A stretch of DNA of 64,000 bases. Source: Winogradskyella pelagia (GTDB lineage Bacteria; Bacteroidota; Bacteroidia; Flavobacteriales; Flavobacteriaceae). Numbering within the stretch: the first letter of the stretch is position 1; each line of letters opens with the position of its first letter. Made by a program: the position numbers and the translations under genes. The notes beneath the pieces were generated by a model. It ran no database searches. It had not been told where the DNA came from and saw only the letters and a list, made by a program, of their open reading frames with translations. The DNA lies in assembly GCF_017581965.1 (NCBI RefSeq), contig NZ_JAGEVF010000005.1:124001-188000 (forward strand). The letters run 5' to 3'. Of the stretch, positions 27,280-46,875 are shown piece by piece.

Positions 27280-29760
27280 ATGCGACAAATTTTTCTTCTA
27301 TTGGTTTTAAGTCTCGGACTACAAAGCATCATCTGTGCTCAAATAATACCAACCCCTACCGATGTTTTAGGCTATGAATTAGGTGAGCATTTCAGCAGGC
27401 ATCATCAAGTAGTAGACTATTTTAAGACCGTTTCAAAAATTAGACCTAAACAGGTAGTTCTAGAACAGTACGGCCTAACGAATGAAAGACGACCACTTTA
27501 TCTGGCTTTTATTTCTAGCGAAGAAAATATTGCCAACCTAGATAACATTAGGCGTAATCATCTAAAAAATGCTGGAATTTTAAAAGGTGAATCCTCTAAC
27601 CCGGAAATTGCCGTGGTTTGGTTAAGTTACAACGTTCATGGAAATGAAGCCTCTAGCACAGAAGCCTCTATGCTTACCTTATATAACCTTTTAACCGAGC
27701 AACAAGACCTTTTAAAAAATACGGTTGTAATTATAGACCCTTGTATTAACCCAGATGGTAGAGATCGCTATGTCAATTGGTATAACGAAACTTCTAGTCA
27801 GCCAAACGATATTGACCCTCAAGCTAGCGAACATAACGAGCCTTGGCCAGGTGGAAGACCTAATCACTACTTGTTTGACCTCAATAGGGATTGGGCTTGG
27901 GCAACCCAAATTGAAACGCAATCACGACTAAAAGTATATAACACTTGGATGCCTCATATCCATGTAGATTTTCATGAGCAAGGAATTAATGAACCGTATT
28001 ATTTTGCTCCTGCAGCAGAACCTTTCCACGAGATTATTTCAGATTTTCAACGTGACTTTCAAACTCAATTAGGTAAAAACCATGCCAAATATTTTGATGA
28101 AAATGGATGGTTATTCTTTACGAGAGAACGCTTTGACTTACTGTATCCAAGCTACGGTGACACCTACCCTACTTTTATGGGAGCTATTGGTATGACCTAT
28201 GAACAGGCTGGACATGGCAGGGCTGGTCTTGGAATTATTAACGACGAAGGAACGCTTCTTACGCTTAAGGACCGACTATTGCACCATACAACAACTGGAA
28301 TTTCTACAGTTGAAATGGCCTCAAAAGAAGCGAAAAAACTGAATTTTGAGTTCTCTAAGTTTTTTGATAATTCTGATTTAGAGTATAAGAGTTTTGTACT
28401 TAGTGGAAATAGTGATAAAATCAATGCCGTAAAGCGCTTATTAGACAAACACGACATAGGGTATGAGAATCCTAATAGAGGTAAGGTTTCAGGATACGAC
28501 TACGGCAATGCTAAACAAGGTAGTTTACAGGTTACAGAAAAAGACCTTGTTATACATACCAATCAACCTAAGGGTAAAATGGTAAAAGCACTATTTGAGC
28601 CTAATGCTAAACTTTCAGATTCGTTAACCTACGATATCACCGCATGGAGTATTCCTTATGCTTATGGATTGGAGGCTGTAGCCAGTAAATCTAAAGTTTC
28701 AAGTTCAGAATTATCAGCTATTAAAACCCTACCAACCATTTCTGAGGCATATGGCTATGCTTTTCATTGGGATACTCTTAATGATGGTAAATTTTTAGCA
28801 GAATTACTCCAAAACGATTTTAGAGTCCGTTTCACGGAAAAACCATTTACCTCAAATGGTGTTAGTTTTGACCGTGGGTCATTAATAATTACTAAAGGAG
28901 ACAATACGCATTTAGACAACTTCTTATCAGATTTAAAAACTATTATTCAAAATCATGAGCAAGAAGTATTTTCAATAGCGACTGGTTTTTCGGATAAAGC
29001 TCCAGATATAGGGTCGCCAGACATTAAGTTAATCAATAGACAGAAAGTTGCTATCCTTTCAGGCAATGGTACTTCGTCTTTGAGTTATGGTGAGCTTTGG
29101 CACTTTTTTGAAAAGCAATTACGGTATCCATTGACTTCGATTAATACGGATAACCTAAACCGTACAAATCTAGATAACTACAACGTGTTGATTATACCAA
29201 ATGGGTATTACGGTTCTGTAATTAACAAAAACGGTCTCAGTAAAATCAAAGATTGGGTAAGGCAAGGTGGAAAAATAATTGCAATCGGTAATGCCTTACG
29301 AAGTTTTGCAGGTAAAGAAGGTTTTGGCTTAACCGAAAAAAAATCAGAAACAAAAGAAGGGTCTACTAACCTAATGGCGTTTGCAGATAGAGAACGTGCC
29401 TCAACTAACGATATGATAACTGGTGCTATATTTAAAACCAAAGTGGACAATACACACCCTATGGCTTACGGTTATCCGTCGGACTATTTCACCTTAAAAT
29501 TGGGAACCACTAGCTATGACCTATTGAGTAGTGGATACAATGTTGGGTATATCGCAGCACCAAACGTATATTCTGGATTTGCGGGTAAAGCTACCTTAAG
29601 CAAACTAGAAAATTCAATGATTTTTGGTGAAGAACGTATGGGGAGTGGAAGTTTTATTTATATGGTTGACAATATTCTCTTTAGAAGTTTCTGGGAGAAT
29701 GGAAAGTTATTTCTGGTCAATTCTATTTTCTTCGTAAATAATAACGCCTTTGAGCTTTAA
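27280..29760 (+). CDS. Secreted M14-family zinc carboxypeptidase
   Basis: 826 residues from ATG at 27280, chosen because it gives a clean signal peptide (MRQIFLLLVLSLGL...CAQ); a TTG nine codons earlier is in frame. The M14 zinc ligands are in NVHGNEASSTE (HxxE) and VDFHEQGIN (His), and the general base Glu is probably in MTYEQAGHGR. The C-terminal ~250 residues form an extra domain resembling a class I glutamine-amidotransferase-like fold (VAILSGNGTSSLSYGELWHF...). The M16 gene starts 13 bp downstream, so the two peptidases are likely co-expressed. Confidence 0.9.
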   Translation: MRQIFLLLVLSLGLQSIICAQIIPTPTDVLGYELGEHFSRHHQVVDYFKTVSKIRPKQVVLEQYGLTNERRPLYLAFISSEENIANLDNIRRNHLKNAGILKGESSNPEIAVVWLSYNVHGNEASSTEASMLTLYNLLTEQQDLLKNTVVIIDPCINPDGRDRYVNWYNETSSQPNDIDPQASEHNEPWPGGRPNHYLFDLNRDWAWATQIETQSRLKVYNTWMPHIHVDFHEQGINEPYYFAPAAEPFHEIISDFQRDFQTQLGKNHAKYFDENGWLFFTRERFDLLYPSYGDTYPTFMGAIGMTYEQAGHGRAGLGIINDEGTLLTLKDRLLHHTTTGISTVEMASKEAKKLNFEFSKFFDNSDLEYKSFVLSGNSDKINAVKRLLDKHDIGYENPNRGKVSGYDYGNAKQGSLQVTEKDLVIHTNQPKGKMVKALFEPNAKLSDSLTYDITAWSIPYAYGLEAVASKSKVSSSELSAIKTLPTISEAYGYAFHWDTLNDGKFLAELLQNDFRVRFTEKPFTSNGVSFDRGSLIITKGDNTHLDNFLSDLKTIIQNHEQEVFSIATGFSDKAPDIGSPDIKLINRQKVAILSGNGTSSLSYGELWHFFEKQLRYPLTSINTDNLNRTNLDNYNVLIIPNGYYGSVINKNGLSKIKDWVRQGGKIIAIGNALRSFAGKEGFGLTEKKSETKEGSTNLMAFADRERASTNDMITGAIFKTKVDNTHPMAYGYPSDYFTLKLGTTSYDLLSSGYNVGYIAAPNVYSGFAGKATLSKLENSMIFGEERMGSGSFIYMVDNILFRSFWENGKLFLVNSIFFVNNNAFEL

Positions 29761-33823: not shown

Positions 33824-34528
33824 CTAATTCGATATGCTAAACTGATAGACACCAGATTCTGAAGAATTTCCTGCAGCATCCTTCGTTACCACGTACCAAT
33901 AATAAATAGTTCCTGGAGTTACAGAAACCGTGAGTTGATTAACATTAACATCTGTTGCATTAACACTAGGTGGATTCTCTATCCCTAAATACACATCGTA
34001 ATTTACAATATCGTCATCAAGATCACTCCCATTCCATTCTAAGGTTAGACTATTGGTAGATGGAATTGTTTGTGCCATTGCGGGAGATACAATTTCTGCC
34101 GGAAAAGGCGTGTAATTTTGAATACCTAGACCAGCATTATAAAAATTCCATAGGGCGCTTTGTTTTGTCTCTCCTTGGTGGTTATATTCTACAGACCATC
34201 GGTATGGTGCGGCACGATTTATAACGACAGGAAAAATAAAATCTACAGTATCAAATTGCGAAATGGAGTTAGTTGCTAGATTTTCTACCGTGAGCGTATA
34301 AACATCTGCATTGGTATTTGGTTCCCATTCAAATAATACAGTACTTTCTGTTGGTGTTAAATTTATTCCCTCATTACACAATGAATTTTCAAATGGAAAC
34401 ACTAGTTGTACACCGTTGGGTGCGTCTTGTCCATTCCCATTACCGTTCTGATTCTCATCACCATCAGAAGATTTACTACAAGCAAAAAGCAAAGAAATTA
34501 TTATAATTAAAGTACCTAATCGTCTCAT
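33824..34528 (-). CDS. Lipoprotein with fibronectin-type III-like domains
   Basis: 234 residues. The lipobox is ISLLFACSKSSDG (Cys about 17), followed by a Gly/Asn-rich linker and two Ig/Fn3-like segments (TVLFEWEPNTNADVYTLTV and NSLTLEWNGSDLDDDIVNYD, ending GTIYYWYVVTKDAAGNSSES). Likely exposed on the outer membrane, possibly a binding module. Its ATG overlaps the stop of the giant LRR gene by 4 bp, so it is the final gene of the four-gene surface operon and translationally coupled to the LRR protein. Confidence 0.85.
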   Translation of the reverse strand: MRRLGTLIIIISLLFACSKSSDGDENQNGNGNGQDAPNGVQLVFPFENSLCNEGINLTPTESTVLFEWEPNTNADVYTLTVENLATNSISQFDTVDFIFPVVINRAAPYRWSVEYNHQGETKQSALWNFYNAGLGIQNYTPFPAEIVSPAMAQTIPSTNSLTLEWNGSDLDDDIVNYDVYLGIENPPSVNATDVNVNQLTVSVTPGTIYYWYVVTKDAAGNSSESGVYQFSISN

Positions 34529-37500
34529 TCCTTAATAATTTTTTGGGTTGATATCATGGATTTAGATTGAACGGATATTACGTAAATTCCTGATGCGTAA
34601 GGGCTCATATCAAAATATACTTCGGAGCCTATGTTTTTTATTGTTTTTGACCGGAGTAATTGACCATATGGAGAATAGATATAGAGTTGTATATCTTCAT
34701 CTTCAGCAGGGTAATAAATAGTAAGTATGTCCTTAACCGGATTAGGATAAAACAATGCGTCTTGAGACACAAGAATTCTTTCTTCATAGATTCCTTGGCA
34801 ATCCAAATCTGTTTTTACCTTTAAATCATTAATTCCGTTTTGTAGTTGAAGAACTAATGCAGGGTTGTATGTGGTAAAGGTTTCGCCATTTAGTTCTATA
34901 TGATATTTAGAACTACCTGATAGGGCTAGGGAAATTTCATCTCCAGAAGCCATCCTATTCGAAAAAACCTCCAATGGCTCTGGTTGAGTAATTACAATGG
35001 TATAGCAAATTTCATAGTCTGGCCATTCCTCTATAGTAATACATAAACTATAGGTACCAGCCAATAGATTGAATATATCAATGTCATTTGTGAAATTATA
35101 TTCCTGATAGAAATCGTCACTTATTAAAGTTGCCGTGTAGGCATAAAGCTCTTGTCCAATTATAGTAATTTGGCCGTTATTGCTATTTAGACAGGTTTCA
35201 CTGGTTACCGAAACCGTAAAATTATCTGAAGGTAAATCAGGAATTGCACATCCAAATAAGTCTACTGCTGCACCAAATGGTGTATTCGGACATTGGTCGT
35301 CTTCATTAGGGATGCCATCATTATCTGCATCGGCACATATGGTCTGGTAGCTTGATGTTTCATCTTTAAACCAATTATCGTAAAAACCATCAACATTATT
35401 AATTACAGCAACAGGATCATCAACTAAAATGCAACTTAAGCTTGGATTATTAGTGGCATTGAAAAGTTGTAAATTTTCATTGTTTCCGTTCTGAAGGTTC
35501 AATTGATCGGCAATTAGTTGATTAGACTGACAGAACAATAATCTAAGACTAGTGTTCTGTGTTACATCTAAGGCTGATAATTGGTTAGAAGCACATATTA
35601 GCTCTTCTAAATTAATAAGAGCATCAACATTTAATTGCGTCAATGCATTATTTGAGATATCTACATCGATAAGATTGAAATTATTATTAAGATTAATCTG
35701 AGAGATTTGATTACTGCCTAAATCTAAGTCTGTTAATTCTGTGAGAATAGACACATCAATATTCGTAAGCATATTCTCCGAGGCGTTAAGGTTATTGAGT
35801 AACAAATTGTTACTTAAATCTAAGGTTGATAAAGCATTGTTTTGAATATTAAGTGTGGTAAGGTTCAAAAACGCCTCAATACCTGTTAAGTCTGAAATCT
35901 CACGTCCGCTGACATCTAAAAATACCAAATCTTCAATTTGTCCCGTAAATACGTAGTCGTCTAAAGGGCCAGAGTCATAGCCCAAATCAATTAAGGCCTG
36001 TTCAAAATTATCATCGGGCACAAACGTTTGGCCAAAGAAACATTCTGTTGACAATTGTGCCGTTGAATCGATAAGCCAATTTGAACCATTTGGTACTGTG
36101 CCATTATCCGATTCTATGCATAATAAATTGGGGTTGTTTTGAGCATTTAGATTTGCTAGAATAGCATTCTGCCCATTTCTGATATTCAAAATTTCTAACA
36201 TATTAAAGCTACAATCAATACTTATAATAGCTTGATTTTCTTGAAAATTTAACTCTGTAATCTCATTGTTTTCACAAGCAAACACTTCTAAAGACAAAAC
36301 ATCTGCAGGGATAAATGCAGTAAATGCATTGTCTGCAATATTTAGGTCTAAAAGATTTTGGTTTTGAGACAAGTCTAAAGCACTGAGAGCGTTTCCTGAG
36401 GTGTTTAAGGCAGTAATTTGTGTATTATTTTCTAGCTGTAATTCGGTTAACTGATTCCCTGAAATATTTAAGTTGAGCAAAGCTATATTATTACTTAAAT
36501 CAACGTCGATAAGATTGTTGTTAGAAACATTGAGAGTTTCTAAATTCTCAAAATCCTCTATACCTGCTAAGTCAGCAATACCATTACCACTAATATCTAG
36601 ATTAGTTAAGCCTTGAATATTTGAGGTAAGTACAAAATCATTTAATGGCGCAGTATCTAATCCTAAATCTATAAGGGCTTGTTCAAAATTATCATCAGGC
36701 ACAAAGGTTTCACCAAAATTACAATCTACGCTGTAAGATGTATCCTCGTCCTTTAACCAACCAGCTCCAATACTATTTTCGTCATCAACCTGAATACATT
36801 CTAAATTTGGATTACCTGTAGTATTTAAACTTGCAATATCAGGGTTAATACCATTTTGGAGATTTACAAAATCAAATAGGTTGTTCGACAAGTTTATGGA
36901 TATCGTCTCTGGGCAAAATTCGTTCTGGCCAGGCTGAAAAGTACAAGCAGACAATGCCATGGTTGTAAGGTCTAACGGACCTTCAATCTGATTATTACTA
37001 ACATTTAACACCTTCAATACACTGAGATCGTTTGATAAGGTGAATTGCGTTATTTGATTTGAACTCACATCCAAATCTATAAGACTGGCGTTGGCACTTA
37101 AATCCGCTTCGTTTAGTTGATTGGAGGACGCATATAAACGCGTTAAAACCGTATTTGTATTAAGTTCTAGTGCAGATATAGCATTAAAACTGCAATTGAG
37201 ATGATTTAGAACAGTATTAGAAGTCACATCTAAAGTGGATAGCTCATTCTGTGACAATAAGGCTGTATCTAAATCTAAATTGGCAGACAAATCAATATTA
37301 GTAATTTGATTGTTCGTTAGAGATAAAAAGGTTAACCCAGGATTTGCTGATACATTAAGTGCAGTTAATTCATTTGAGCTACAATTAAGTGTCTCAAGAC
37401 CTTGATAATTATTAACCAAAATAGTAGACAATTCATTATTGGCACAACTCAATTCAGTTAAGCTGGTATTTGGTATAGTAGCTGTGGTAAGGGCTGTTAA

Positions 37501-40173
37501 TCGATTGCTGTCTGCATTGAGTTCTTTTAAAACCAAATTATTACTGATATCTAGAGCGTCTAAATCATTATTTGAGCAATTTAAACGTCGAAGAAGTGCA
37601 TTGTTATCTATTTGGAGTTGTGCTAAATTATTGTTAGCGCAATCTAGTATTTCTAAATTAAGATTTTGAGAAGTATCGAGGTCATTCAAGTTGTTATCAG
37701 CGCAAAATAATTCTCTAAGACTAGGAGTTCCGACTGAATTAAAAACGCCATCAACTCCATTGATATCGTTAGTTTGAAGAAAATTTGAGCTACAATTAAG
37801 CCGCTCCAAAAACAACATATTACTTATATCCAAAGCTTCTAAAAAATTACTGCTGCAATCTAATTCTACTAAAAGCCTAAAATCTTGGATACCTGTTAAA
37901 TCCTGAATGCTTTTATTACCAACCTCAAGGATTTGGAGCGTTTCAATAGCTGAAGTTAAAACAAGTCCATCAATAACATCATCATGCCCTAAGTCAATGA
38001 GTGCTTGCTCAAAAAACGGGTCTGGTATGGCAGTAAACCTGTTATTTTCGCAGTCATCATTATAATCAGCAATTCCGTCTATTTGCCATGTTGCCGGTAT
38101 ATTACCCAAAACAGCATTATCAACTGTAATACAAAACAGTGTTGGATTATTCTGAGCATTAAAATCGGCCAAATTATTGTTGTTACCACTGGCAATATTT
38201 AAACGCGATAGATTACTAGTGTTGCATGTTAGTGAAATTAAGGCAGCGTTAGCAGTAAGGTCGAGTTGTTCAATATTATTACTTGAGCAATTTAAGGTTT
38301 GAAGCGAGACGTTAGAACTAAGGTTTAAACTCGTAAGCGCATTGTTAGAGACATTTAAATCTTCTAAGGCGGTAAAATCTTCTATACCTGTTAAATCAGC
38401 TATTGCAAGATTTGGGATATTTAGGATGTCTATTCCGACGATATCTGCAGTAGACACAAAATTATTGAGTGTGCCATCAGAATCTATATTTTGATCAATT
38501 AAATATTGCTCAAAATTATCATCTGGAATATAGGTGCCACAATTTAGATTATAGTCAGCCATGGCATCTTTTTGCCAACCCGCAGCGCCATTTGCATAAG
38601 CCGCATCATCTACTTCTATACAAAACAGACTATTATTATTTGTAGCATCGAAGGTGGTAATAATTGTATTATTTCCATTAGCCATGTTTATGGCAAACAA
38701 ATTATTATCATTAGCTAAAAAACTCACCATGCTAGTTAATGCAGAAACATCTAATTGTTCAATTTGATTGAATGATGCATCTAAATCAGCCAACAGTGTA
38801 TTGCCACTTACATCTAAACTAGATAGTATGTTGTTAGAACAATTAAGAATAGTTAAAGCTATATTATTAGTAAGGTTTAAACTTTCAATAAAATTATTCC
38901 CACAATACAGTTCGAGTAATTGTGTATTTGAGGATAGGTCTAAATTTTCAAGGTCGTTATTGGTAATATCTAACTGCACTAATTGAACATTATTAGAAAG
39001 ATCGACATTCTCTATACTGTTGGTGCTACAGTTTAGGTTCTGTAATTGTATAAAATCTTGAATTCCTAAAAGGCTTGTAATATTGGAATTTGCAATATCT
39101 AAATCAGTTATAACATTAATATTCTCTGTTAAAACTAAGTTATCCAATGTATCATCCAAACCAGCATCTATTAGCGCTTGTTCAAAATTGTCATCTGGTA
39201 CATAGGTGAAAATATCTACGCAAGCGGCATCGCTAAAATATGTCCAATCGTCCTTGACCCAACCTTCGGGTGTAAAGCCGTTATCGATTTGAATACAAAA
39301 TAAATCTGGATTATCGGAGGCATCGAATAGTGATACCAAATCATTAAATCCATTGTTTACATTTAAAGACACTAAATTATTACGAGAAACATTAATTTGA
39401 GAAGCACTCTGACAGTCAGTCTCTGGATCAGTTTGCGGATCTGGACATATTATGGAATTAATTGAAGTTAAATCTAAATTAGTTAAAATATTATTGGAGA
39501 CATCCAAATTATTGATTAAGGAATTGGCATTAAGGTCTAATGTATCAATCTGATTTGAAGAACAAAACAAACCTTTTAAATTTGCATTATTTACAACTAC
39601 CAATTCTCCAACAATTCTATTATCGGAAATATTCAATTGCCTTAATTCTGTATTATTTGATAAATCAATTTGTGCTAATTGATTGTCTGAAGCCGATATA
39701 CTGCGTAAAGCTGTATTATTGATTACATCCAAATTTTGAATTTGATTATTAGAACAATCCAAGGTCTCTAAATTTGAATTGTTGCTAATATCTAATACTG
39801 TTAGGCTATTAGATCCACACACTAATGAAATTAGGTTGGTATTGTTTGAAATATTGAGCACAGTAAGATTATTCTCGCTACAAAACAATATTTCCAAAGC
39901 TGTAAAATCCTCAATTCCGGTGAGGTCATCGATACCCAAGTTTGAAACATCTAATAATACCACAGCATTAATCCTTTCGGTCAACACCAAACCATTGTTG
40001 GTAATACCATCACCCATACTTTCGGCATCGCCTACATTAACAATGCTTCCATCTTCAGAGTGGGTTTCAAGATAATCCTCAAAATTGGCGTCTGGTATTG
40101 CAGTGGTTTGTGCTTTTGCCAAAATAGCAAAGGACATAGCTGTTAGTAACGAAATAAGAACTTTAGTTTTCAC
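34525..40173 (-). CDS. Giant T9SS-exported leucine-rich-repeat protein
   Basis: 1882 residues. Signal peptide (about 1-21, ending LAKAQ). Six modules, starting at about residues 24, 320, 546, 713, 1155 and 1383, each open with a capping segment of type IPDDNFEQALIDLG, then TGIEDF, and continue with 21-22-residue leucine-rich repeats of pattern LxxLNCSxNxLxxLDLSxN, many bearing Cys as in cysteine-ladder LRRs. A calcium-binding thrombospondin-3 type segment (DADNDGIPNEDDQCPNTP, about 1615) and a SprB-like domain follow. The end is a T9SS type A tail (FYPNPVKDILTIYY). It is 24 bp downstream of the tail-fibre-like gene and is an expected surface adhesin or recognition protein. Confidence 0.93.
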   Translation of the reverse strand: MKTKVLISLLTAMSFAILAKAQTTAIPDANFEDYLETHSEDGSIVNVGDAESMGDGITNNGLVLTERINAVVLLDVSNLGIDDLTGIEDFTALEILFCSENNLTVLNISNNTNLISLVCGSNSLTVLDISNNSNLETLDCSNNQIQNLDVINNTALRSISASDNQLAQIDLSNNTELRQLNISDNRIVGELVVVNNANLKGLFCSSNQIDTLDLNANSLINNLDVSNNILTNLDLTSINSIICPDPQTDPETDCQSASQINVSRNNLVSLNVNNGFNDLVSLFDASDNPDLFCIQIDNGFTPEGWVKDDWTYFSDAACVDIFTYVPDDNFEQALIDAGLDDTLDNLVLTENINVITDLDIANSNITSLLGIQDFIQLQNLNCSTNSIENVDLSNNVQLVQLDITNNDLENLDLSSNTQLLELYCGNNFIESLNLTNNIALTILNCSNNILSSLDVSGNTLLADLDASFNQIEQLDVSALTSMVSFLANDNNLFAINMANGNNTIITTFDATNNNSLFCIEVDDAAYANGAAGWQKDAMADYNLNCGTYIPDDNFEQYLIDQNIDSDGTLNNFVSTADIVGIDILNIPNLAIADLTGIEDFTALEDLNVSNNALTSLNLSSNVSLQTLNCSSNNIEQLDLTANAALISLTCNTSNLSRLNIASGNNNNLADFNAQNNPTLFCITVDNAVLGNIPATWQIDGIADYNDDCENNRFTAIPDPFFEQALIDLGHDDVIDGLVLTSAIETLQILEVGNKSIQDLTGIQDFRLLVELDCSSNFLEALDISNMLFLERLNCSSNFLQTNDINGVDGVFNSVGTPSLRELFCADNNLNDLDTSQNLNLEILDCANNNLAQLQIDNNALLRRLNCSNNDLDALDISNNLVLKELNADSNRLTALTTATIPNTSLTELSCANNELSTILVNNYQGLETLNCSSNELTALNVSANPGLTFLSLTNNQITNIDLSANLDLDTALLSQNELSTLDVTSNTVLNHLNCSFNAISALELNTNTVLTRLYASSNQLNEADLSANASLIDLDVSSNQITQFTLSNDLSVLKVLNVSNNQIEGPLDLTTMALSACTFQPGQNEFCPETISINLSNNLFDFVNLQNGINPDIASLNTTGNPNLECIQVDDENSIGAGWLKDEDTSYSVDCNFGETFVPDDNFEQALIDLGLDTAPLNDFVLTSNIQGLTNLDISGNGIADLAGIEDFENLETLNVSNNNLIDVDLSNNIALLNLNISGNQLTELQLENNTQITALNTSGNALSALDLSQNQNLLDLNIADNAFTAFIPADVLSLEVFACENNEITELNFQENQAIISIDCSFNMLEILNIRNGQNAILANLNAQNNPNLLCIESDNGTVPNGSNWLIDSTAQLSTECFFGQTFVPDDNFEQALIDLGYDSGPLDDYVFTGQIEDLVFLDVSGREISDLTGIEAFLNLTTLNIQNNALSTLDLSNNLLLNNLNASENMLTNIDVSILTELTDLDLGSNQISQINLNNNFNLIDVDISNNALTQLNVDALINLEELICASNQLSALDVTQNTSLRLLFCQSNQLIADQLNLQNGNNENLQLFNATNNPSLSCILVDDPVAVINNVDGFYDNWFKDETSSYQTICADADNDGIPNEDDQCPNTPFGAAVDLFGCAIPDLPSDNFTVSVTSETCLNSNNGQITIIGQELYAYTATLISDDFYQEYNFTNDIDIFNLLAGTYSLCITIEEWPDYEICYTIVITQPEPLEVFSNRMASGDEISLALSGSSKYHIELNGETFTTYNPALVLQLQNGINDLKVKTDLDCQGIYEERILVSQDALFYPNPVKDILTIYYPAEDEDIQLYIYSPYGQLLRSKTIKNIGSEVYFDMSPYASGIYVISVQSKSMISTQKIIKE

Positions 40174-40197: not shown

Positions 40198-42369
40198 TTA
40201 GTGTTTAGAACTTTGATCTATTTCTTTGTGATAATGCAACTGTTTTTGGAGCTTACCGTGTAGTTCAGTGATAAAATCTTGTCTAAAACCACCGTCAGTT
40301 TGTAATTTTTCCCAAACCTCTTTATTAGCGTCGTATAATCCTGACTCTTTCATAGACTCCTCTGCCGCAACTATGGCCTTTTCGATATCTGTTTTTGTTA
40401 TTTCAAAATAAATAACATCTGTTTCCTCCAACTCAACAATTTCATATTTCCTTTGGTTGTGCGCAGTACCTGAAACGGTAGTTTGGGATTGATCTAACTG
40501 TGTCAATCTCTGAGTTTCTCCTTTAGCCAATGCATCTAATATTTCATTCATTTTATTTTTGAGGGCATCAATCTCCAATTGTTGCGTAGTGATTTTTGCT
40601 TCAAGCCTTTCAACAATGTGGTTATTGTCGTTTGTATTTGTGCCAACAACAACATTGATTAAATTAAAAGCTGAGGCTTCATTATTCTCTTCCCAAGCAA
40701 CACCCACGATATTATTTATGTCTTTTAATGTGATTTTTTCTGGTGACACTGCAAGTCCAATGCCATCATTTCTTCCACTTGGTATAATGTAATCACCCTT
40801 ATTGACCTTCCCATACACTTTAACTGGCACTTGTCCCATAAAGGCAACCTTTTCATACTCCTTCTCTCGGTTTTTTTGCGGCATATTACCTAATACTATA
40901 GGTTTACGAGACACTACCATTGCACGCTCAGCATTCTCTGTATTCTTTGATATTTTTCCGCCTTTTACTCCAACAATATCTCCAAAAATCATTTCTTCAT
41001 TTATATTTTCCCGCAACAAATATTCCGCATAGTCACCAGCTCCAGAGGCATAGGTTACGCCTTGTAAGCTTACCCTATTGTCTAGAAATAGGTTTTTATT
41101 ATCGATGGCATTAAAGATTGCAACACCTGTTGTAATTGCCTGAATAGTTACCACTACAGATTCCGTAGTATATTTAAATATCATCGATGGAATTGGCGCA
41201 GTAACGCAAGCGCCTATGCCTGCACAGCCTGTTGATGAGGAAAATGCCATGGCTGTACCGGTTACAGCTGCATATACGTCAGCTCCTGCAAACAAACCAC
41301 TTAAACCTGCATCATAAATAGCCCAATCCAAACCTCTTACATTGAAATTATGGTCTGCATTATTTTCAAACTCATTTTCTTTTTCTCCTTCTATTCTTCC
41401 CCATGAAATATTTGAGCTATCATTTTCATCATCGTAAAAAGTGATAAAGTTGGTACTATTGTTACGACTTCCATTAACCTTTATGGCCAGACCATTATTA
41501 CCGCCGTCTATAAGCACTGGATGATTTGACATTTCGGTCCCTGTATTCGGTAAATTGGAAGTCAATCTAATTTGATTTCCCATGCCATCAATACGAGTTA
41601 CACCATTTAAAGTCGTACTTTGATTAACCACCAAATTATCAGCGGTTAAGTCTCCAAAGCTAGCCTCACCATTTACTGTTAAATCGTTTAAAGTGGTTAA
41701 ACCAATTACATCTAAAGTGCCATCTAAAGCCGTATTACCATTCACTCCTAAATCACCTGTTAATTCGGATGGACTACCATTATTTACAGTGAATGCTTCA
41801 TTAAGGTTTGTTTCGCCATCTACGGTTAATGTTCCCGTAAGATTGGTTGCATTACCGTTATTGACGTCTAAAGAACTATTTAAATTGGTTGGGCCTTCTA
41901 CTTGTAATTCACCGTTTAAGAAGGTACGGTCGTCAACGGTCAATGTTCCTGTCGCCGTTATATTTCTATGATAGGCATAAGGCAAAAAAGTGAGTCGTTC
42001 CCTACTCATTACCTCAAAATTACTACCAGCATCAAAGTCAATTTCAACCCTAAGGTCTTTTGGTGTACCATCCCAGCTTATTTCTTTAAAATAATCGTGA
42101 TCAGCATCTCCAATTAACAGATTGATGCGCCCAAATTCGTCCGTATCTGTTACTTGAACTTCTTGAAATTCTATTTGGTTTGTGCTATCAAAAATAGTAA
42201 AGCGCACGGCAATTGTGGCATTGGGCAGATAGTTACCCTCACTGTCTACACCTGGTAATTCTAAATCATCAGGACCAATTATAACCGCTTGGTAGGTAAT
42301 ACCGTCTGTTTGGCCAAAGGATTTCAGGGCCATGCCTAGAAATAGTGTTAATATTAAAATTCGTTTCAT
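40198..42369 (-). CDS. Exported tail-fibre-like protein with peptidase-G2-like segment
   Basis: 723 residues. Signal peptide (about 1-19, ending KSFGQ). The first domain (GITYQAVIIGPDD... to LTFLPYAYHRN, about 20-135) is a module seen ahead of fibre-like proteins in Bacteroidetes. Residues about 136-275 are short beta repeats (GTLTVDGETNLN, GDLGVNGNTALD) that look like a fibre shaft. Around 450-580, ASGAGDYAEYLLREN followed by GDIVGVKGGKI resembles the self-cleaving peptidase-G2 domain of phage appendage proteins. A coiled coil follows (VERLEAKITTQQLEIDALKN). No T9SS tail is seen. It sits second in the four-gene operon. Cleavage activity is inference. Confidence 0.75.
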   Translation of the reverse strand: MKRILILTLFLGMALKSFGQTDGITYQAVIIGPDDLELPGVDSEGNYLPNATIAVRFTIFDSTNQIEFQEVQVTDTDEFGRINLLIGDADHDYFKEISWDGTPKDLRVEIDFDAGSNFEVMSRERLTFLPYAYHRNITATGTLTVDDRTFLNGELQVEGPTNLNSSLDVNNGNATNLTGTLTVDGETNLNEAFTVNNGSPSELTGDLGVNGNTALDGTLDVIGLTTLNDLTVNGEASFGDLTADNLVVNQSTTLNGVTRIDGMGNQIRLTSNLPNTGTEMSNHPVLIDGGNNGLAIKVNGSRNNSTNFITFYDDENDSSNISWGRIEGEKENEFENNADHNFNVRGLDWAIYDAGLSGLFAGADVYAAVTGTAMAFSSSTGCAGIGACVTAPIPSMIFKYTTESVVVTIQAITTGVAIFNAIDNKNLFLDNRVSLQGVTYASGAGDYAEYLLRENINEEMIFGDIVGVKGGKISKNTENAERAMVVSRKPIVLGNMPQKNREKEYEKVAFMGQVPVKVYGKVNKGDYIIPSGRNDGIGLAVSPEKITLKDINNIVGVAWEENNEASAFNLINVVVGTNTNDNNHIVERLEAKITTQQLEIDALKNKMNEILDALAKGETQRLTQLDQSQTTVSGTAHNQRKYEIVELEETDVIYFEITKTDIEKAIVAAEESMKESGLYDANKEVWEKLQTDGGFRQDFITELHGKLQKQLHYHKEIDQSSKH

Positions 42370-42397: not shown

Positions 42398-42922
42398 TTA
42401 AATTTTTATAAGTTTTTCGTCTAGTCGTTTTGTTCCAGACATTACCCTAAGCACATAAGTTCCTATGGCAAGATCTGTGAGTTGCAGTTCAATTTCTTGG
42501 GAAGGCAAGGCCTTTTGTTTGCGGATGACCCTTCCATTGATATCTATTAATAGAATAGAAATTTCATCTCGTATTACTGTATTAAATGCTATGGTAACTT
42601 TATGGCGAAAGGGATTTGGATGTATTTTGGCCACAAGTTCAACATCTAATTCTTTGATAATTTCTATTTTGGATAATGGCTGTTGATAGCCTTGCCTTAG
42701 ATAATAACCGTTATTAAAATAAGTCCCTATAACACTTGCTTGACCTATACTATGACTAATTTTATACGTACCAGATGGTGTAGTTATAGTTTGAGAAGAA
42801 CCGCTGCTGGCCAAATTGGAGCTTACAATCCGATAATTTGATTCTTCTTGTCCGAAGCTGTTGCTTATAAAACCATTGAGAACCAATAAACCCAATACAA
42901 TTTTTAAAAATTCGTGTTTCAT
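42398..42922 (-). CDS. Small T9SS-exported protein, first gene of the surface operon
   Basis: 174 residues. Signal peptide (about 1-24, ending SNSFGQ), then a domain of about 65 residues of the SHSIGQASVIGTYFNNGYYL type, ending RQGYQQP, which I recognise from many Bacteroidetes secreted proteins but which has no known role. The rest is a T9SS type A sorting domain (IHPNPFRHKVTIAF to KRLDEKLIKI). It is 28 bp upstream of the tail-fibre-like gene and about 75 bp downstream of a paired GTGGACA site. Confidence 0.85.
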   Translation of the reverse strand: MKHEFLKIVLGLLVLNGFISNSFGQEESNYRIVSSNLASSGSSQTITTPSGTYKISHSIGQASVIGTYFNNGYYLRQGYQQPLSKIEIIKELDVELVAKIHPNPFRHKVTIAFNTVIRDEISILLIDINGRVIRKQKALPSQEIELQLTDLAIGTYVLRVMSGTKRLDEKLIKI

Positions 42923-42994
42923 TTTAATTTTTTTTATCCCTTTTAAATTCTAAGTTAAGACTATATTAATGTTAAATCCTAGGGAGTTACAGTA

Positions 42995-43012
42995 TGTCCA
43001 CCTTTTGTCCAC
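42995..43012 (-). promoter_or_regulatory. Paired GTGGACA direct repeat, operator candidate A
   Basis: Minus strand reads GTGGACAAAAGGTGGACA, two identical heptamers 11 bp apart. It lies about 73 bp before the first gene of the four-gene surface operon and 11 bp before a CCTAGGATTT element. Same arrangement as at 43739 and 45734. Confidence 0.6.
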
Positions 43013-43026
43013 ATGGTTGTACCAGC

Positions 43027-43674
43027 TTAAAAATCGCAGTAACATTTGGGAAGATTTATGATAAATCCGATACCAAATTGGTGTGCATTTAGATTAAGCT
43101 TCTCGTTACTATCACCACTATTTGCCAAAACAGACTGCCCATAGGTATAACCCACAAACAAGGCTGTACTTCTTGATATCGGATACTGCATTTCCACACC
43201 ACCACGAAAAAACAAAATGGTGTTATTGAACTCTGGCTCCCCAACAAGGTTAAACACTTCGTTGTTTATGGTTTGTGTACCACGTATTAAAAATTCAGAG
43301 GCCACTGAAGCATTGAACATAAATGTTAAATCTCGAAGTCTAAACATCTGAATACCAATTCCGCCTTCCAAACCGAGATAACTCACATCCCATTCAAAGA
43401 AATTATCTACGCTAACCTCGCTGCCTATAGCACCATAATTATTGAAACTAGCACCCAAGGTCAAAAACAATGTTCTCCGGTCATTGATACTTTGCCTATA
43501 GCCCATACCATAATAGGCCTTGGATGTTGATAGTAAATTATCCAATGGTCGACCTTGAGAATTTTCATAAGCAAAAGAAGACACATTGGTTCCTAATTCA
43601 ATATAAAGTTGTTGTCCTTGGCATGTTAATGTTACTAATACAACAATCCATAAAAATGGACGAAAAGACATCAT
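43027..43674 (-). CDS. Outer-membrane beta-barrel-like protein
   Basis: 215 residues from ATG at 43674 (a second ATG follows at once); the earlier in-frame start would precede the signal peptide (FLWIVVLVTLTCQGQ). The mature part consists of alternating amphipathic beta strands (LYIELGTNVSSFAY, RTLFLTLGASFNNYG, YLGLEGGIGIQMF, QFGIGFIINLP) and ends in Phe, all typical of a small outer-membrane barrel of 8-10 strands. No specific family recognised. A paired GTGGACA site lies about 65 bp upstream, so it probably shares control with the surface operon. Confidence 0.72.
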   Translation of the reverse strand: MMSFRPFLWIVVLVTLTCQGQQLYIELGTNVSSFAYENSQGRPLDNLLSTSKAYYGMGYRQSINDRRTLFLTLGASFNNYGAIGSEVSVDNFFEWDVSYLGLEGGIGIQMFRLRDLTFMFNASVASEFLIRGTQTINNEVFNLVGEPEFNNTILFFRGGVEMQYPISRSTALFVGYTYGQSVLANSGDSNEKLNLNAHQFGIGFIINLPKCYCDF

Positions 43675-43738
43675 GGCATTCAGTTTTGTTACAGCTAATG
43701 TAGACGTCAAAACCGAGGTAGAAAAGGAAAAAAAGCCA

Positions 43739-43756
43739 TGTCCACACTTTGTCCAC
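43739..43756 (-). promoter_or_regulatory. Paired GTGGACA direct repeat, operator candidate B
   Basis: Minus strand reads GTGGACAAAGTGTGGACA, two identical heptamers 11 bp apart, about 65 bp before the beta-barrel gene and 20 bp before a CCTCGGTTTTG element. Confidence 0.6.
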
Positions 43757-43802
43757 CACCAAACATACGTCTGTTTTAAAATTTTTTTGACCTTTAATAT
43801 AG

Positions 43803-43811
43803 GTGGACAAA
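43803..43811 (+). promoter_or_regulatory. Single GTGGACAAA half-site upstream of the regulator gene
   Basis: One copy of the heptamer plus AA, in the same orientation relative to its gene as sites A and B, about 100 bp before the TPR-HTH regulator. A second single copy (43971-43979) falls inside the start of that gene. Lacking a partner, either could be chance. Confidence 0.35.
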
Positions 43812-43904
43812 CACTAACTCTTTATTATTTATAGTGTTGATTTTCAATATTTTATAAATATTTTTAAAGTGTATTGAGGTTTAATTCAAACAACAAAATT
43901 CGGT

Positions 43905-45713
43905 ATGAAAACGTATAAGTTTCTAAAAGATGTCCAATTTTTAGCCAAAAGGAACTATGTCACCCTAAAGGTGGACAAAATTTGGTTCGTCTTTATTCTC
44001 GGTGCTTTAGTAGTTCAGGGCATACAAGGTCAAAATCAGAAAAAAATCGATAGTATTTTGTCAATTGCCAAAACTCAAACAGATACTACTCAAATTATGT
44101 CCTATGCAGAAATCTGGGCTGAATATATTTTTAAAGATCCCTTAGCTTCAAAACCCTATTTGGACAGCACTCTTGTATTGGCAGACCGCTTGGGCAACAA
44201 ATCCTTTATCGCTCGCACAAAAAATTATCTTGGTGTATATTACAATATGACCTCCCAATATGAAAAATCTGATTCAGTATATGATAAGGTCATAGAGCTC
44301 TACGCTAAACTTGGTGATAGTGTTATGATGTCCTATGCCTTAAATAATAAGGCAAATAGCCTTCGGTCCCTTGGGAGACTATATGAGTGTCTCGAAGTTC
44401 ATATGCAAACCTTAAAATTAAAGGAAGCTATTAACGATACAGAAGAAAGTATTGCAGCAAGTTATTGGAATATTGGGAATATTCAGGGTGATATTGAAAA
44501 CTATGACATTTCCAATGAATACTATTTAAAGGCTAAAACCATATATGAGACCCTAGGCAATAAAGATGATTTAGCAAGTGTTAATACCAACATAGCCATA
44601 AATCTTAAAGGCCAAAAACAATATGAAGAAGCTAAACACCTACTCATTGATGTTGTACCTTACTATAAAATCAATAATTACTACAACGATTTGGCTGGCG
44701 CCTTCGATAATATTGGTTGGATATATGCTCAACAGGATAGTTTAGATATCGCTGAAAACTATTATTATAAAGCACTTGAGATAAGCAGAAATTATGGCGA
44801 AAAGTCCTTGGTTGGTTTAAACCTAAGACACCTTGGTGAATTATATAATATAAAGGGTGAATATCGACAGGCACTACGTTATATGAAACAAGCCCTTGAA
44901 ATTAGTGAAGAAACGAGTACTAATAAAAAGAAGATTGGCGACCTTCTTGAAATATCCAAAGCTTATGCAGGACTAGGTCGTTACAAAAAAGCTTATGAGT
45001 ATCATACCTCTTATCATAAACTTCATGATGAAATTCTAGGCAAGGAAAGTGTTAATCGTATGAACGAAATAGAAGTACTATATCAAACTGAAAAAAAAGA
45101 AAAAGAACTGATCATTAAAAATAACAGAATTAAACTGCTTGAAGAGCGTAAACAGAAAGCCGAAAACGAGAAACTATTTTTATTAATCTCCCTCTTAGGA
45201 ACTATAGCTCTAGCATTTGCCATATTTTATGGATTTAGGCAAAGAGCAAAACGCAATACAATTGAACGCGAAAAATTAAACAATAATTTAAGATTTAAGG
45301 AAAAGGAACTCACCACACACGCCTTGCACTTGGCTCACAAGAATGAAGTTTTATTAGATTTAAAAGAACAGCTCAAGGAATTAAAGGCAGACTCTAAAAA
45401 TGCACGTCAGTACCAGAGCATCATCAATAACATTAATTTAGACATTAATAATGATACTAATTGGGAACAGTTTAGAAGTTATTTTGAAGACGTTCACAGA
45501 GACTTTAATTCTAAAGTGATGAACACTTACCCTGAGGTTAGCAATAACGATTTAAGATTAATGGCTTTGCTAAAAATGAATTTATCAAGCAAAGAAATTG
45601 CCAATATCTTAAATATTTCTGTCGAAGGTGTCAAAAAAGCCCGATATCGTCTACGTAAAAAATTGAAACTATCTACTGAAGACTCTTTACAAGAATTGGT
45701 TATTGATTTATAA
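43905..45713 (+). CDS. TPR / transmembrane / HTH transcriptional regulator
   Basis: 602 residues. After an N-terminal signal-like stretch (about 24-43, FVFILGALVVQGIQGQ) come tandem TPR units from about 60 to 390 (SYALNNKANSLRSLGRLYEC, then ASVNTNIAINLKGQKQYEEA, and others). One membrane segment at about 424-444 (FLLISLLGTIALAFAIFYGF) and a coiled coil lead to a C-terminal LuxR/GerE-like HTH (LSSKEIANILNISVEGVKKA at about 559-578). The TPRs would lie in the periplasm and the HTH in the cytoplasm, so it can sense an envelope signal and regulate directly. Its neighbours carry paired GTGGACA sites, making it the likely regulator of the adjoining surface genes. Confidence 0.9.
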   Translation: MKTYKFLKDVQFLAKRNYVTLKVDKIWFVFILGALVVQGIQGQNQKKIDSILSIAKTQTDTTQIMSYAEIWAEYIFKDPLASKPYLDSTLVLADRLGNKSFIARTKNYLGVYYNMTSQYEKSDSVYDKVIELYAKLGDSVMMSYALNNKANSLRSLGRLYECLEVHMQTLKLKEAINDTEESIAASYWNIGNIQGDIENYDISNEYYLKAKTIYETLGNKDDLASVNTNIAINLKGQKQYEEAKHLLIDVVPYYKINNYYNDLAGAFDNIGWIYAQQDSLDIAENYYYKALEISRNYGEKSLVGLNLRHLGELYNIKGEYRQALRYMKQALEISEETSTNKKKIGDLLEISKAYAGLGRYKKAYEYHTSYHKLHDEILGKESVNRMNEIEVLYQTEKKEKELIIKNNRIKLLEERKQKAENEKLFLLISLLGTIALAFAIFYGFRQRAKRNTIEREKLNNNLRFKEKELTTHALHLAHKNEVLLDLKEQLKELKADSKNARQYQSIINNINLDINNDTNWEQFRSYFEDVHRDFNSKVMNTYPEVSNNDLRLMALLKMNLSSKEIANILNISVEGVKKARYRLRKKLKLSTEDSLQELVIDL

Positions 45714-45733
45714 ATCAGCTATTTACAAAAAAA

Positions 45734-45784
45734 CGTCCACGATTTGTCCACTATGTATTAGGTTACTGTCCACCGATTGTCTAT
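45734..45784. promoter_or_regulatory. Two paired TGTCCAC repeats, operator candidate E
   Basis: On the plus strand CGTCCAC and TGTCCAC are 11 bp apart (45734 and 45745), and TGTCCAC and TGTCTAT are again 11 bp apart (45767 and 45778). They start 21 bp after the regulator's stop codon and lie upstream of the TAGGTTTG element at 45817, a position usual for activator sites. Confidence 0.55.
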
Positions 45785-45816
45785 CCTTATTTTTTTTATT
45801 CATCTCTCTCTCAACC

Positions 45817-45824
45817 TAGGTTTG
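45817..45824 (+). promoter_or_regulatory. Putative -7 promoter element for the cadherin-like lipoprotein gene
   Basis: TAGGTTTG within CCTAGGTTTG, an exact TAnnTTTG match. The expected -33 region contains only T-rich sequence with no TTG, consistent with dependence on an activator. Confidence 0.5.
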
Positions 45825-45829
45825 TAGTG

Positions 45830-45939
45830 TCATTAAATAATGGCAAACAGTTTTGTGGTGCCTTGCGCTGGTTTAGGCTGCAGACGACCAGTAGCAAGTC
45901 GCTACAAAAACTAAAGTAAAACCACAAAACACAAGTCTT
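45830..45939 (+). promoter_or_regulatory. Strongly folding 5' leader
   Basis: GTTTTGTGGT (45850-45859) is the exact reverse complement of ACCACAAAAC (45921-45930), which ends nine bases before the ATG. Inside, CTTGC/GCAAG (45862/45894) and CTGGT/ACCAG (45868/45887) continue the helix, while GTAGC/GCTAC (45891/45901) can pair instead of GCAAG. Two mutually exclusive folds next to a start codon suggest a regulated leader. It does not match a riboswitch class I know. Confidence 0.5.
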
Positions 45940-46875
45940 ATGAAAACACAATTCAAAATTTACAGCCTTTTTATGGTATTCTTACTCATTGCTATGTCAT
46001 GCAGTGATGACGGTGATAGCTTTACACCGAGCGCTTCGGATATCATGGTTAACATTGACGAAAACCCCAATAATGGTCAGTCTATTGGTACGGTAGCTAC
46101 TAATTTAACCGGCACCTTAGTCTATAGCATTTCATCTCAAAATCCAGCAAATGCATTTGCCATTAATAGTAGCACAGGTGAAATCACTATTAATGACTCC
46201 TCAAAATTTAACTACGAGGAGACCGTCACATTAGAAGCTATTATATCAGTTACCAATTCAGAACAAAATGCCACATCAACGGTAAGTGTTACTTTGAATG
46301 ATATAGATGATATATGGTATTTCCTTAGTTCATCGCGAGATGCTTATTTGACTGCAGAAAATGATACCTGGATAACAGTTACAGAAAACGAGTACAACCA
46401 ACTATCAGAAAATTTGATGCAAATCACCAAGAACGGGACATCTGATGACGAATTTAACACCAATTCTACGTTTTCTAACGGTAGTGGTAATTACACATGG
46501 TTTAACGACAATGGTAGAACCATACCCTCAAGCAGTTATCTCATTGCGTTTAAGCTAAATTCATGGAGTAATAACGCTGCGAGTACGCAAGTAAAGATTT
46601 CTACTAGTGAATCTACTGGTCCTTACATGGCTATGGGTTCGGTCTTACCCGAATACAATTCTGGCAACCGCTACTTCGTGTATAAAGGTGCCAATTCAGC
46701 TACTCCAAATGAATCGTATATAAGTGTATTTGCATCAGTTGCTATAGGTGCTAAATCACTCTCAAGCTCTATATATAGGTACGCCAATGGAAATTCGGAT
46801 GTTTTGACCAATGCTGATGGTGGCTTTGTAATTCTTTATCAAGGCTTAAGCACAACAGTAAAACAATGGGACTAA
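45940..46875 (+). CDS. Cadherin-like-domain lipoprotein
   Basis: 311 residues. The lipobox is LIAMSCSDDGD (Cys about 21), and the acidic residues after it fit surface export. A cadherin-like repeat spans about 32-125 (NIDENPNNGQSIGTVATNL, then FAINSSTGEITIND and VSVTLNDIDD). The remainder (about 126-311) is a beta-rich domain with many Asn, Ser and aromatic residues and no recognised family. It follows the TPR-HTH regulator by 226 bp that hold paired operator-like repeats, a -7 element and a folded leader, so it is probably a regulated surface protein. Confidence 0.85.
   Translation: MKTQFKIYSLFMVFLLIAMSCSDDGDSFTPSASDIMVNIDENPNNGQSIGTVATNLTGTLVYSISSQNPANAFAINSSTGEITINDSSKFNYEETVTLEAIISVTNSEQNATSTVSVTLNDIDDIWYFLSSSRDAYLTAENDTWITVTENEYNQLSENLMQITKNGTSDDEFNTNSTFSNGSGNYTWFNDNGRTIPSSSYLIAFKLNSWSNNAASTQVKISTSESTGPYMAMGSVLPEYNSGNRYFVYKGANSATPNESYISVFASVAIGAKSLSSSIYRYANGNSDVLTNADGGFVILYQGLSTTVKQWD

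Follow-up and report, generated by a model that had tools for sequence, protein, structure and literature searches.

Paired GTGGACA repeats as probable docking sites for a membrane-spanning gene switch in Winogradskyella pelagia

What are the paired GTGGACA repeats for that surround a single regulator gene of Winogradskyella pelagia? They lie in a cluster of surface-protein genes on contig NZ_JAGEVF010000005.1, within the 64,000-nt stretch analyzed here (the window, whose positions serve as coordinates throughout). An earlier note, made from the letters of this DNA, had proposed a local regulon around the tetratricopeptide repeat (TPR)-helix-turn-helix (HTH) protein of the cluster, REG. According to our analysis, they very probably serve as docking sites for a gene switch that spans the membrane. 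More precisely, we are confident that they would act as operators of REG, a putative one-component transmembrane regulator encoded next to them, and that it would activate three transcription units, one of which is predicted to carry a structured leader with two alternative folds.

Scored as GTGGACA-N4-GTGGACA, four pairs are found in the window, all reading GTGGACA on the minus strand, together with two single half-sites.

42995..43012, minus strand: site A, GTGGACAAAAGGTGGACA, no mismatch, upstream of the four-gene surface operon, present in relatives.
43739..43756, minus strand: site B, GTGGACAAAGTGTGGACA, no mismatch, between the beta-barrel-like gene BBRL and REG, upstream of BBRL, present in relatives.
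45734..45751, minus strand: site C distal, GTGGACAAATCGTGGACG, one mismatch, 20 bp past the REG stop codon.
45767..45784, minus strand: site C proximal, ATAGACAATCGGTGGACA, two mismatches, its edge 32 nt before a -7 box by hand count.
43803..43809, plus strand: single half-site GTGGACA, upstream of REG.
43971..43977, plus strand: single half-site GTGGACA, within the 5' coding part of REG, in its first codons.

The pairs and the single copies upstream of and within the start of the regulator gene are therefore where the earlier note had seen them, and the isolated coding match that it had mentioned elsewhere in the window is one further heptamer, at 29443, inside an open reading frame (ORF). 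The two pairs of site C start 33 bp apart, that is, three times 11. In the whole genome (3.36 Mb, 58 contigs), allowing one mismatch returned three pairs, all in the cluster, against one for the reversed pattern, which served as the chance control. The excess over chance that the earlier note had expected at up to two mismatches did not appear, with nine pairs against 12 in the control, although four of the nine fall within 2.8 kb in the cluster, which is more than chance would give. Outside the cluster there are thus no near-exact pairs, and loose ones are no commoner than expected by chance.

The candidate binder is encoded between sites B and C.

43905..45713, plus strand: REG, 602 amino acids (aa), from its translation, Pfam and AlphaFold2.

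REG has an N-terminal hydrophobic segment, a TPR superhelix (residues ∼26 to 378), one transmembrane segment placed by eye at ∼424 to 445, and a C-terminal HTH of the NarL/LuxR type. Sequence and model put sensor, single transmembrane segment and DNA-binding domain in one chain, a candidate ToxR/CadC-like architecture in which the TPR sensor would lie outside the cytoplasm. The AlphaFold2 model (pLDDT 78.6) shows the TPR superhelix, a long helix that includes the membrane segment, and an HTH of four helices (547-557, 562-569, 573-586 and 592-601), with Tyr581 in the recognition helix. By hand alignment Tyr581 corresponds to Lys192 of NarL, which we take to be a base-contacting residue. Modeled separately, the C-terminal 103 aa (pLDDT 81.7) adopt a four-helix HTH fold of the GerE kind, for which the 50 Foldseek matches listed are mostly NarL/FixJ/LuxR-family chains, with E-values of 0.08 or worse, as would be expected for a small fold. 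The isolated DNA-binding domains of NarL, DosR, LiaR and VraR match this model with a Foldseek probability of 1.00 and TM-scores by target of 0.71 to 0.77, at E-values of 0.1 or worse. In Pfam, GerE reached 23.3 bits against a gathering score of 23.5, and Sigma70_r4_2 reached 23.8 against 25.7. No receiver domain was found in REG, Pfam at E ≤ 0.001 giving only TPR and HTH-type matches, and no kinase domain was matched by Pfam. In a PDB sequence search, the best-matching stretch among the best 60 of 130 matches was in the TPR part.

The modeled HTH of REG resembles NarL/FixJ (LuxR, GerE) domains. NarL-type regulators, however, have a receiver domain, which REG lacks, its HTH being joined instead to a transmembrane helix and a TPR sensor. 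The best known sites of NarL are inverted heptamers, whereas the putative sites of REG are tandem head-to-tail 11-bp units. PhoB-type pho boxes are also tandem 11-bp direct repeats, with seven conserved and four A/T-rich bases, but PhoB has a winged-helix fold and a different site sequence, and the likeness is one of analogy only. The NCBIfam model for FimS of Porphyromonas gingivalis matches REG at 267-452 (E 8.1e-23), far under its cut-off. FimS, according to passages of PMC11053733, carries eight periplasmic TPR motifs and acts on fimbriae. It too combines a TPR sensor with a transmembrane segment, but it is the histidine kinase of the FimS-FimR pair, whereas REG carries a DNA-binding domain in the same chain. 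The NCBIfam BT3442 family matches over both the TPR and the HTH parts (267-600, E 1.8e-14), with 53.4 of 940 bits, far under the equivalog cut-off. Passages of PMC2954219 report TPR motifs in Bacteroides BT_3442 and a putative operon with a MACPF protein, and describe no operator or leader for it. Among the matches listed, titles and abstract starts of open-licence PMC papers, no description of this regulator-operator-leader combination was found.

If REG binds the repeats, the two should be found together in relatives. In a sample of 68 Winogradskyella genomes, with the regulator called at E ≤ 1e-60, the regulator is present in 17 and an exact pair in 17, both occurring in 16, either one alone in one genome each, and neither in 50. 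An exact pair is therefore present in 16/17 genomes with the regulator versus 1/51 without. All 25 exact pairs fall within this cluster or adjoin a regulator paralog, and at up to one mismatch there are 59 pairs compared to 36 for the reversed control. The order of surface operon, site, beta-barrel gene and site is kept in 15 of 20 fetched regions, and the regulator comes next in 14 of these 15 (one truncated by a contig end), the exception being genome G004. Of the other five regions, one comes from a second contig of G043, two are loci of other paralogs (with or without the sites), and two are second-site loci. The same order of operon, site, beta-barrel gene and site is seen in a Paucihalobacter locus (L046). 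A pair or double pair stands ∼20 bp past the regulator stop codon in many but not all regions, with a lipoprotein gene, some other gene or short ORFs after it. In G060 the lipoprotein gene corresponding to CAD, the gene downstream of site C, is 9 kb away from the regulator, yet it has its own double site and leader. Conservation of the sites in relatives with the same cluster, proposed by the earlier note as a check, is thus observed in the Winogradskyella regions examined. As for the single copies, the place of 43971 reads GTGGACA in 14 of the 15 sequences printed, while that of 43803 does so in five, with another xxxGACA in seven and nothing in three.

Homologs of the regulator, called at E ≤ 1e-55, were found in at least 50 of 397 Flavobacteriaceae genomes, a lower bound since only three candidates per genome were scored. 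We fetched 60 regions around homologs blind to sites, covering every listed place outside the genus except one (G141, with an inner stop), and examined the 400-bp flanks of their 80 regulators, many of them only 25-45% identical. At up to two mismatches, a spacer of 4 gave 60 places with GTGGACA pairs and a spacer of 15 (period 22) gave 14, compared to 0-3 for each other spacer between 0 and 14. Exact 6-mer direct repeats with at least three G or C likewise peak at a period of 11, with 169 matches in 48/60 loci, while the other periods from 7 to 24 give 0-21. By one set definition, an 11-bp direct repeat flanks 57/80 regulators and 51/60 loci versus 2/269 control genes in those loci at a distance of over 1.5 kb. 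The repeats also adjoin distant homologs that have other neighbors and different target families. Chance or low-complexity repeats would agree with a two-mismatch genome count that is not above its control, but the spacing and period controls and the family-wide conservation make this explanation so extremely improbable that we reject it. The co-occurrence of sites and regulator in the earlier note's picture holds, but not its local character, as the cluster appears to be one case of a family-wide regulator-operator arrangement and not a one-off local regulon.

If the adjacent HTH reads the repeat, the letters of the repeat could be expected to follow the recognition helix. The repeat classes share ACA and differ before it (GTGG, GTAG, GCGG or CCGG, ATGG, GGGT and GGTG). 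A KKARY helix goes with the GG forms (xxGGACA) and with GTAGACA, KKARQ with GGGT (GGGTACA) in 12/12 classed cases, KKARN with GGTG (GGTGACA) in 4/4, and SKY-type helices with ATGG pairs. The sole exception among classed repeats is the odd repeat of locus L113; in this survey, regulators under 480 aa were dropped and 34/116 had no classed repeat. The match extends to paralogs in one genome, as L103 has Q with GGGT and Y with GTGG, and L145 and L146 of genome G171 differ likewise. In G171, GGGT goes with one regulator and GGTG with another, and at a third, regulator-free place a GGGT pair precedes a leader and a lipoprotein gene. Quick trees were built without rows shorter than 570 aa (114 left, 78 of them with class and parsed residue). 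The one made from the sensor part, minus the HTH, gave agreement in 9/9 independent pairs for Q (p 0.004) and 8/8 for SKY (p 0.008). Helix type has to change 21 times on the sensor tree and five times on the HTH tree, and our reading is that TPR sensors have been exchanged between regulators while the HTH and the nearby site travel together, which would keep HTH and operator matched but offers few independent changes. As a separate observation, IPG or VPG precedes KKARQ in L094, L126, L135 and L161, which share a downstream TATACC-N4-GTC[TG]CCCC with unlike halves and remain unclassed.

How could REG act from these sites? The three transcription units and the core promoter element of the third are as follows.

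45940..46875, plus strand: CAD, cadherin-domain lipoprotein, 311 aa, target of the leader promoter.
45817..45824, plus strand: sigma-A -7 box of the leader promoter, TAGGTTTG, consensus and place taken from passages of PMC9723704.
43027..43674, minus strand: BBRL, outer-membrane beta-barrel-like, 215 aa, Pfam match under the cut-off; promoter of site B and TACATTAG at 43695-43702.
42398..42922, minus strand: operon gene 1, type IX secretion system (T9SS) sorting-domain protein, 174 aa; promoter of site A and TAACTTAG at 42950-42957.
40198..42369, minus strand: operon gene 2, 723 aa, borderline match to Peptidase_G2 (autoproteolytic chaperone).
34525..40173, minus strand: operon gene 3, leucine-rich-repeat protein with T9SS sorting domain, 1882 aa.
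33824..34528, minus strand: operon gene 4, lipoprotein, 234 aa, fn3 match under the cut-off.

For the primary sigma factor of Flavobacterium psychrophilum, passages of PMC9723704 give the consensus TAnnTTTG at -12 to -5. In 37/42 leader promoters the distance from the end of the site to TAnnTTT is exactly 32 nt, and in the other five it is 65 nt, which places the sites between about -62 and -45 and between about -95 and -78; the predicted start of the leader transcript in the window is 45829. These values come from 47 rows with a box, some from near-duplicate species, five of which had no detected site; among these five are the promoter of the window itself (its ATAG failed the G+C rule, and the 32 nt were counted by hand) and a reverse-strand artefact (L074 +). 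Sites occur in both orientations, the repeat being reversed at the surface operon and beta-barrel promoters, where the box consensus begins at 36 nt, that is, 32 + 4, or 32 when all 11 bp are taken as the unit. The reversed promoters were sorted by a rough pattern that placed several beta-barrel promoters in the operon group, and both groups show 36. Such a fixed phase upstream of the -7 box suggests an activator, and REG is probably one because its sites end at a fixed distance upstream of core promoter elements. A REG that represses and is released by a signal is unlikely in our view: the sign of regulation is not readable from sequence and site B, 148 nt before the REG start codon, could serve autorepression, but leader-promoter sites that end 32 nt before the -7 box, at ∼-45 and in fixed phase, are at the usual place of an activator. 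Separately, the beta-barrel promoters of L069, L072, L083 and L092 have the box TAnnTTGC, similar to the SM5 motif TAnnTTGY in passages of PMC9723704, and another sigma factor may serve the beta-barrel gene in some species.

The promoter that includes site C (45734-45824) would produce a transcript with a conserved structured leader before CAD.

45829..45939, plus strand: predicted 5' leader RNA, with a P0 hairpin at ∼45829-45844 and a P1/P2 hairpin at 45849-45914, covariance-model score 35.7 bits.
45850..45859, plus strand: leader 5' arm, GTTTTGTGGT, able to pair either with the P1 3' side or with 45921-45930.
45921..45930, plus strand: alternative partner (ALT), ACCACAAAAC, 9 nt before the start codon.

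The short P0 hairpin is followed by the longer P1/P2 hairpin, whose loop CTGCAGA is nearly invariant, and then, 9 nt ahead of the start codon, by AACCACAAAAC. The 5' arm is common to P1 and ALT, and only one of the two can form at a time. Covariation is seen for both folds. For P1/P2, 94.0% of cells are paired over 20 rows, with 24 cells changed on both sides versus 6.1 after shuffling and 31-49% pairing in slid controls; for P0 and ALT together, 93.3% are paired over 42 rows, with 18 such cells versus 4.0. ALT alone is 95.5% paired with both-side changes in 3/10 pairs, a value that describes mostly ALT-bearing leaders, since the 42-row alignment excluded those without ALT as well as near duplicates. 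RNAalifold gave only four pairs on this alignment because MAFFT had misaligned the 3' side of P1, and an alignment of 20 rows from one subgroup was scored for P1/P2 instead. Forcing ALT costs a median of 2.0 kcal/mol (0 to 15.5) over 36 leaders with ALT of at least eight pairs, and 2.6 in the window, where folding the leader as a single sequence gives only a moderate gain over shuffles (z -1.70). The leader probably adds translational control, as we infer from the fact that one of two near-equally stable folds covers the stretch just before the start codon. A known RNA family was ruled out by Rfam 15, which had no match for the leader at gathering score, nor at E up to 5 over 45700-46000. Nor was the leader seen described among the open-licence PMC papers listed, the 104-RNA survey PMC2864571 being covered in passages.

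With a covariance model, the leader was found in 19/68 genus genomes (E ≤ 0.01), in 20/199 family genomes (E ≤ 0.001) and in 6/296 genomes of an order-wide draw (E ≤ 1e-4), all six in Flavobacteriaceae. The filters lose weak matches, and the genus scan missed the leaders of L070 (G008) and L080 (G037), which were seen by eye; the 113 matches of the locus scan count both strands of the same, partly palindromic hairpin. The leader core lies 32-36 nt past the box in most cases and 45-47 nt in five, with the ATG mostly 87-93 nt past the core. Ten loci were reached via the leader RNA alone, and nine of them have 11-bp repeats 80-95 bp upstream and seven an adjacent regulator, all seven with ATGG pairs. 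The tenth, L172, was rejected as a false hit (26.8 bits, in or near coding DNA, without leader marks) and is counted as a miss. Along with the repeats beside distant homologs and the letters that track helix residues, these loci support the TPR-transmembrane-HTH protein as the putative binder, which was also the proposal of the earlier note.

The hairpin past 45829 might instead be a small RNA in its own right or a site of DNA recombination. This would suit the loci where it persists without a lipoprotein gene and only short ORFs follow (L072, L075, L088), as well as its partly palindromic form, with which the model matches the other strand too. We nevertheless consider it rather doubtful given the near-constant placement between -7 box and start codon, the ALT covariation just before the ATG, and the single copy in the window genome; an attC-like recombination site was set aside on the same three grounds. 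Apart from this, no lipoprotein gene follows the leader in L069 (18150), L072, L075, L076, L078, L079, L081, L082 and L088, where ORFs of 23-36 aa are found, several with a hydrophobic stretch.

Together with the two-mismatch genome count, several findings speak against REG as the reader of the repeats or against parts of the proposed control. Among the 80 regulators, 23 lack such a repeat within 400 bp, including some that come first in a tandem pair, and the unclassed regulators include five of the Q type. GTAG and GTGG repeats both pair with Y, hence residue 581 alone does not set the repeat letters. The HTH tree has only 3, 2 and 1 independent pairs (3 and 1 for Q and SKY), which means that HTH and adjacent site may be inherited as one block and that the code rests on few events. 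The two reversed-orientation promoters of the window read TAnnTTAG, a weak -7 box. Leaders without an ALT copy are found in L069 (18150), L070, L072, L075 and L088, and the copy is weak in L079, L114 and L122. Finally, G004 keeps the operon with one exact and one single-mismatch site without a close regulator (best match 6.8e-40), and G031 keeps site and leader in a decayed cluster.

These last two genomes, and locus L165 with a site and leader but no adjacent regulator, would be expected if the repeats were bound by another, unlinked transcription factor and REG were merely a regulated member of the cluster. We regard this as quite improbable, because the repeat letters match the HTH type even between paralogs in one genome (L103; L145/L146), the repeats adjoin homologs at 25-45% identity with different target families, and the orphan site in L165 belongs to the same class as that of a different regulator in its genome. 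On its own, the G031 locus (L171) has a remnant-like surface operon, beside which site, leader and a lipoprotein-type ORF persist.

With REG as the binder, the switch could work as follows. The TPR domain, outside the cytoplasm, would sense an envelope signal, and the cytoplasmic NarL/LuxR-type HTH would bind the tandem 11-bp units, each GTGGACA plus four bases, as a head-to-tail pair, with two pairs bound at the third (leader) promoter. Bound at a fixed distance upstream of a primary-sigma -7 box, REG would activate the four-gene T9SS/leucine-rich-repeat surface operon, the beta-barrel gene, and the leader transcript before the surface lipoprotein gene, whose translation the fold choice of the leader may further control. 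Tentatively, and with slightly more doubt than belief, we extend this to a family-wide control in two layers, in which envelope-sensing TPR-transmembrane-LuxR regulators have dialects of an 11-bp tandem operator set by the recognition helix, a new class of bistable leader RNA gates translation of surface lipoproteins including CDC-like pore formers, and sensors are swapped while HTH, operator and leader stay together. If true, this would offer a readable DNA-recognition code for a Bacteroidota regulator group, with targets predictable from protein sequence, and would add a structured leader RNA without a family match in Rfam 15. Surface lipoproteins, some from a pore-forming family that bacteria use against one another, would also be tied to a putative envelope-sensing switch.

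The leader targets themselves were taken from leaders with a box and an ORF of at least 100 aa, plus six picked from the loci found through the RNA. All 39 such proteins are lipoprotein-like (34 by a simple pattern, five by eye) and form four sequence families and three singles. Thiol_cytolysin matches 4/9 leader targets scanned (L124, L116, L123 and L106) and was not matched in CAD. CDC-like proteins of Bacteroidota kill related bacteria according to passages of PMC11169675, in which a word search found no mention of a tetratricopeptide regulator. They are related to the Thiol_cytolysin leader targets elsewhere, whereas the target in the window is a cadherin-domain lipoprotein. The leader target of L114, without a Pfam match, is aerolysin-like by eye. 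In G032 (L088 3618-6535, 6762-6941), a double site and leader adjoin rimO, away from the main cluster, and across the site a TPR protein and a response-regulator-like gene (by eye) read away from it.

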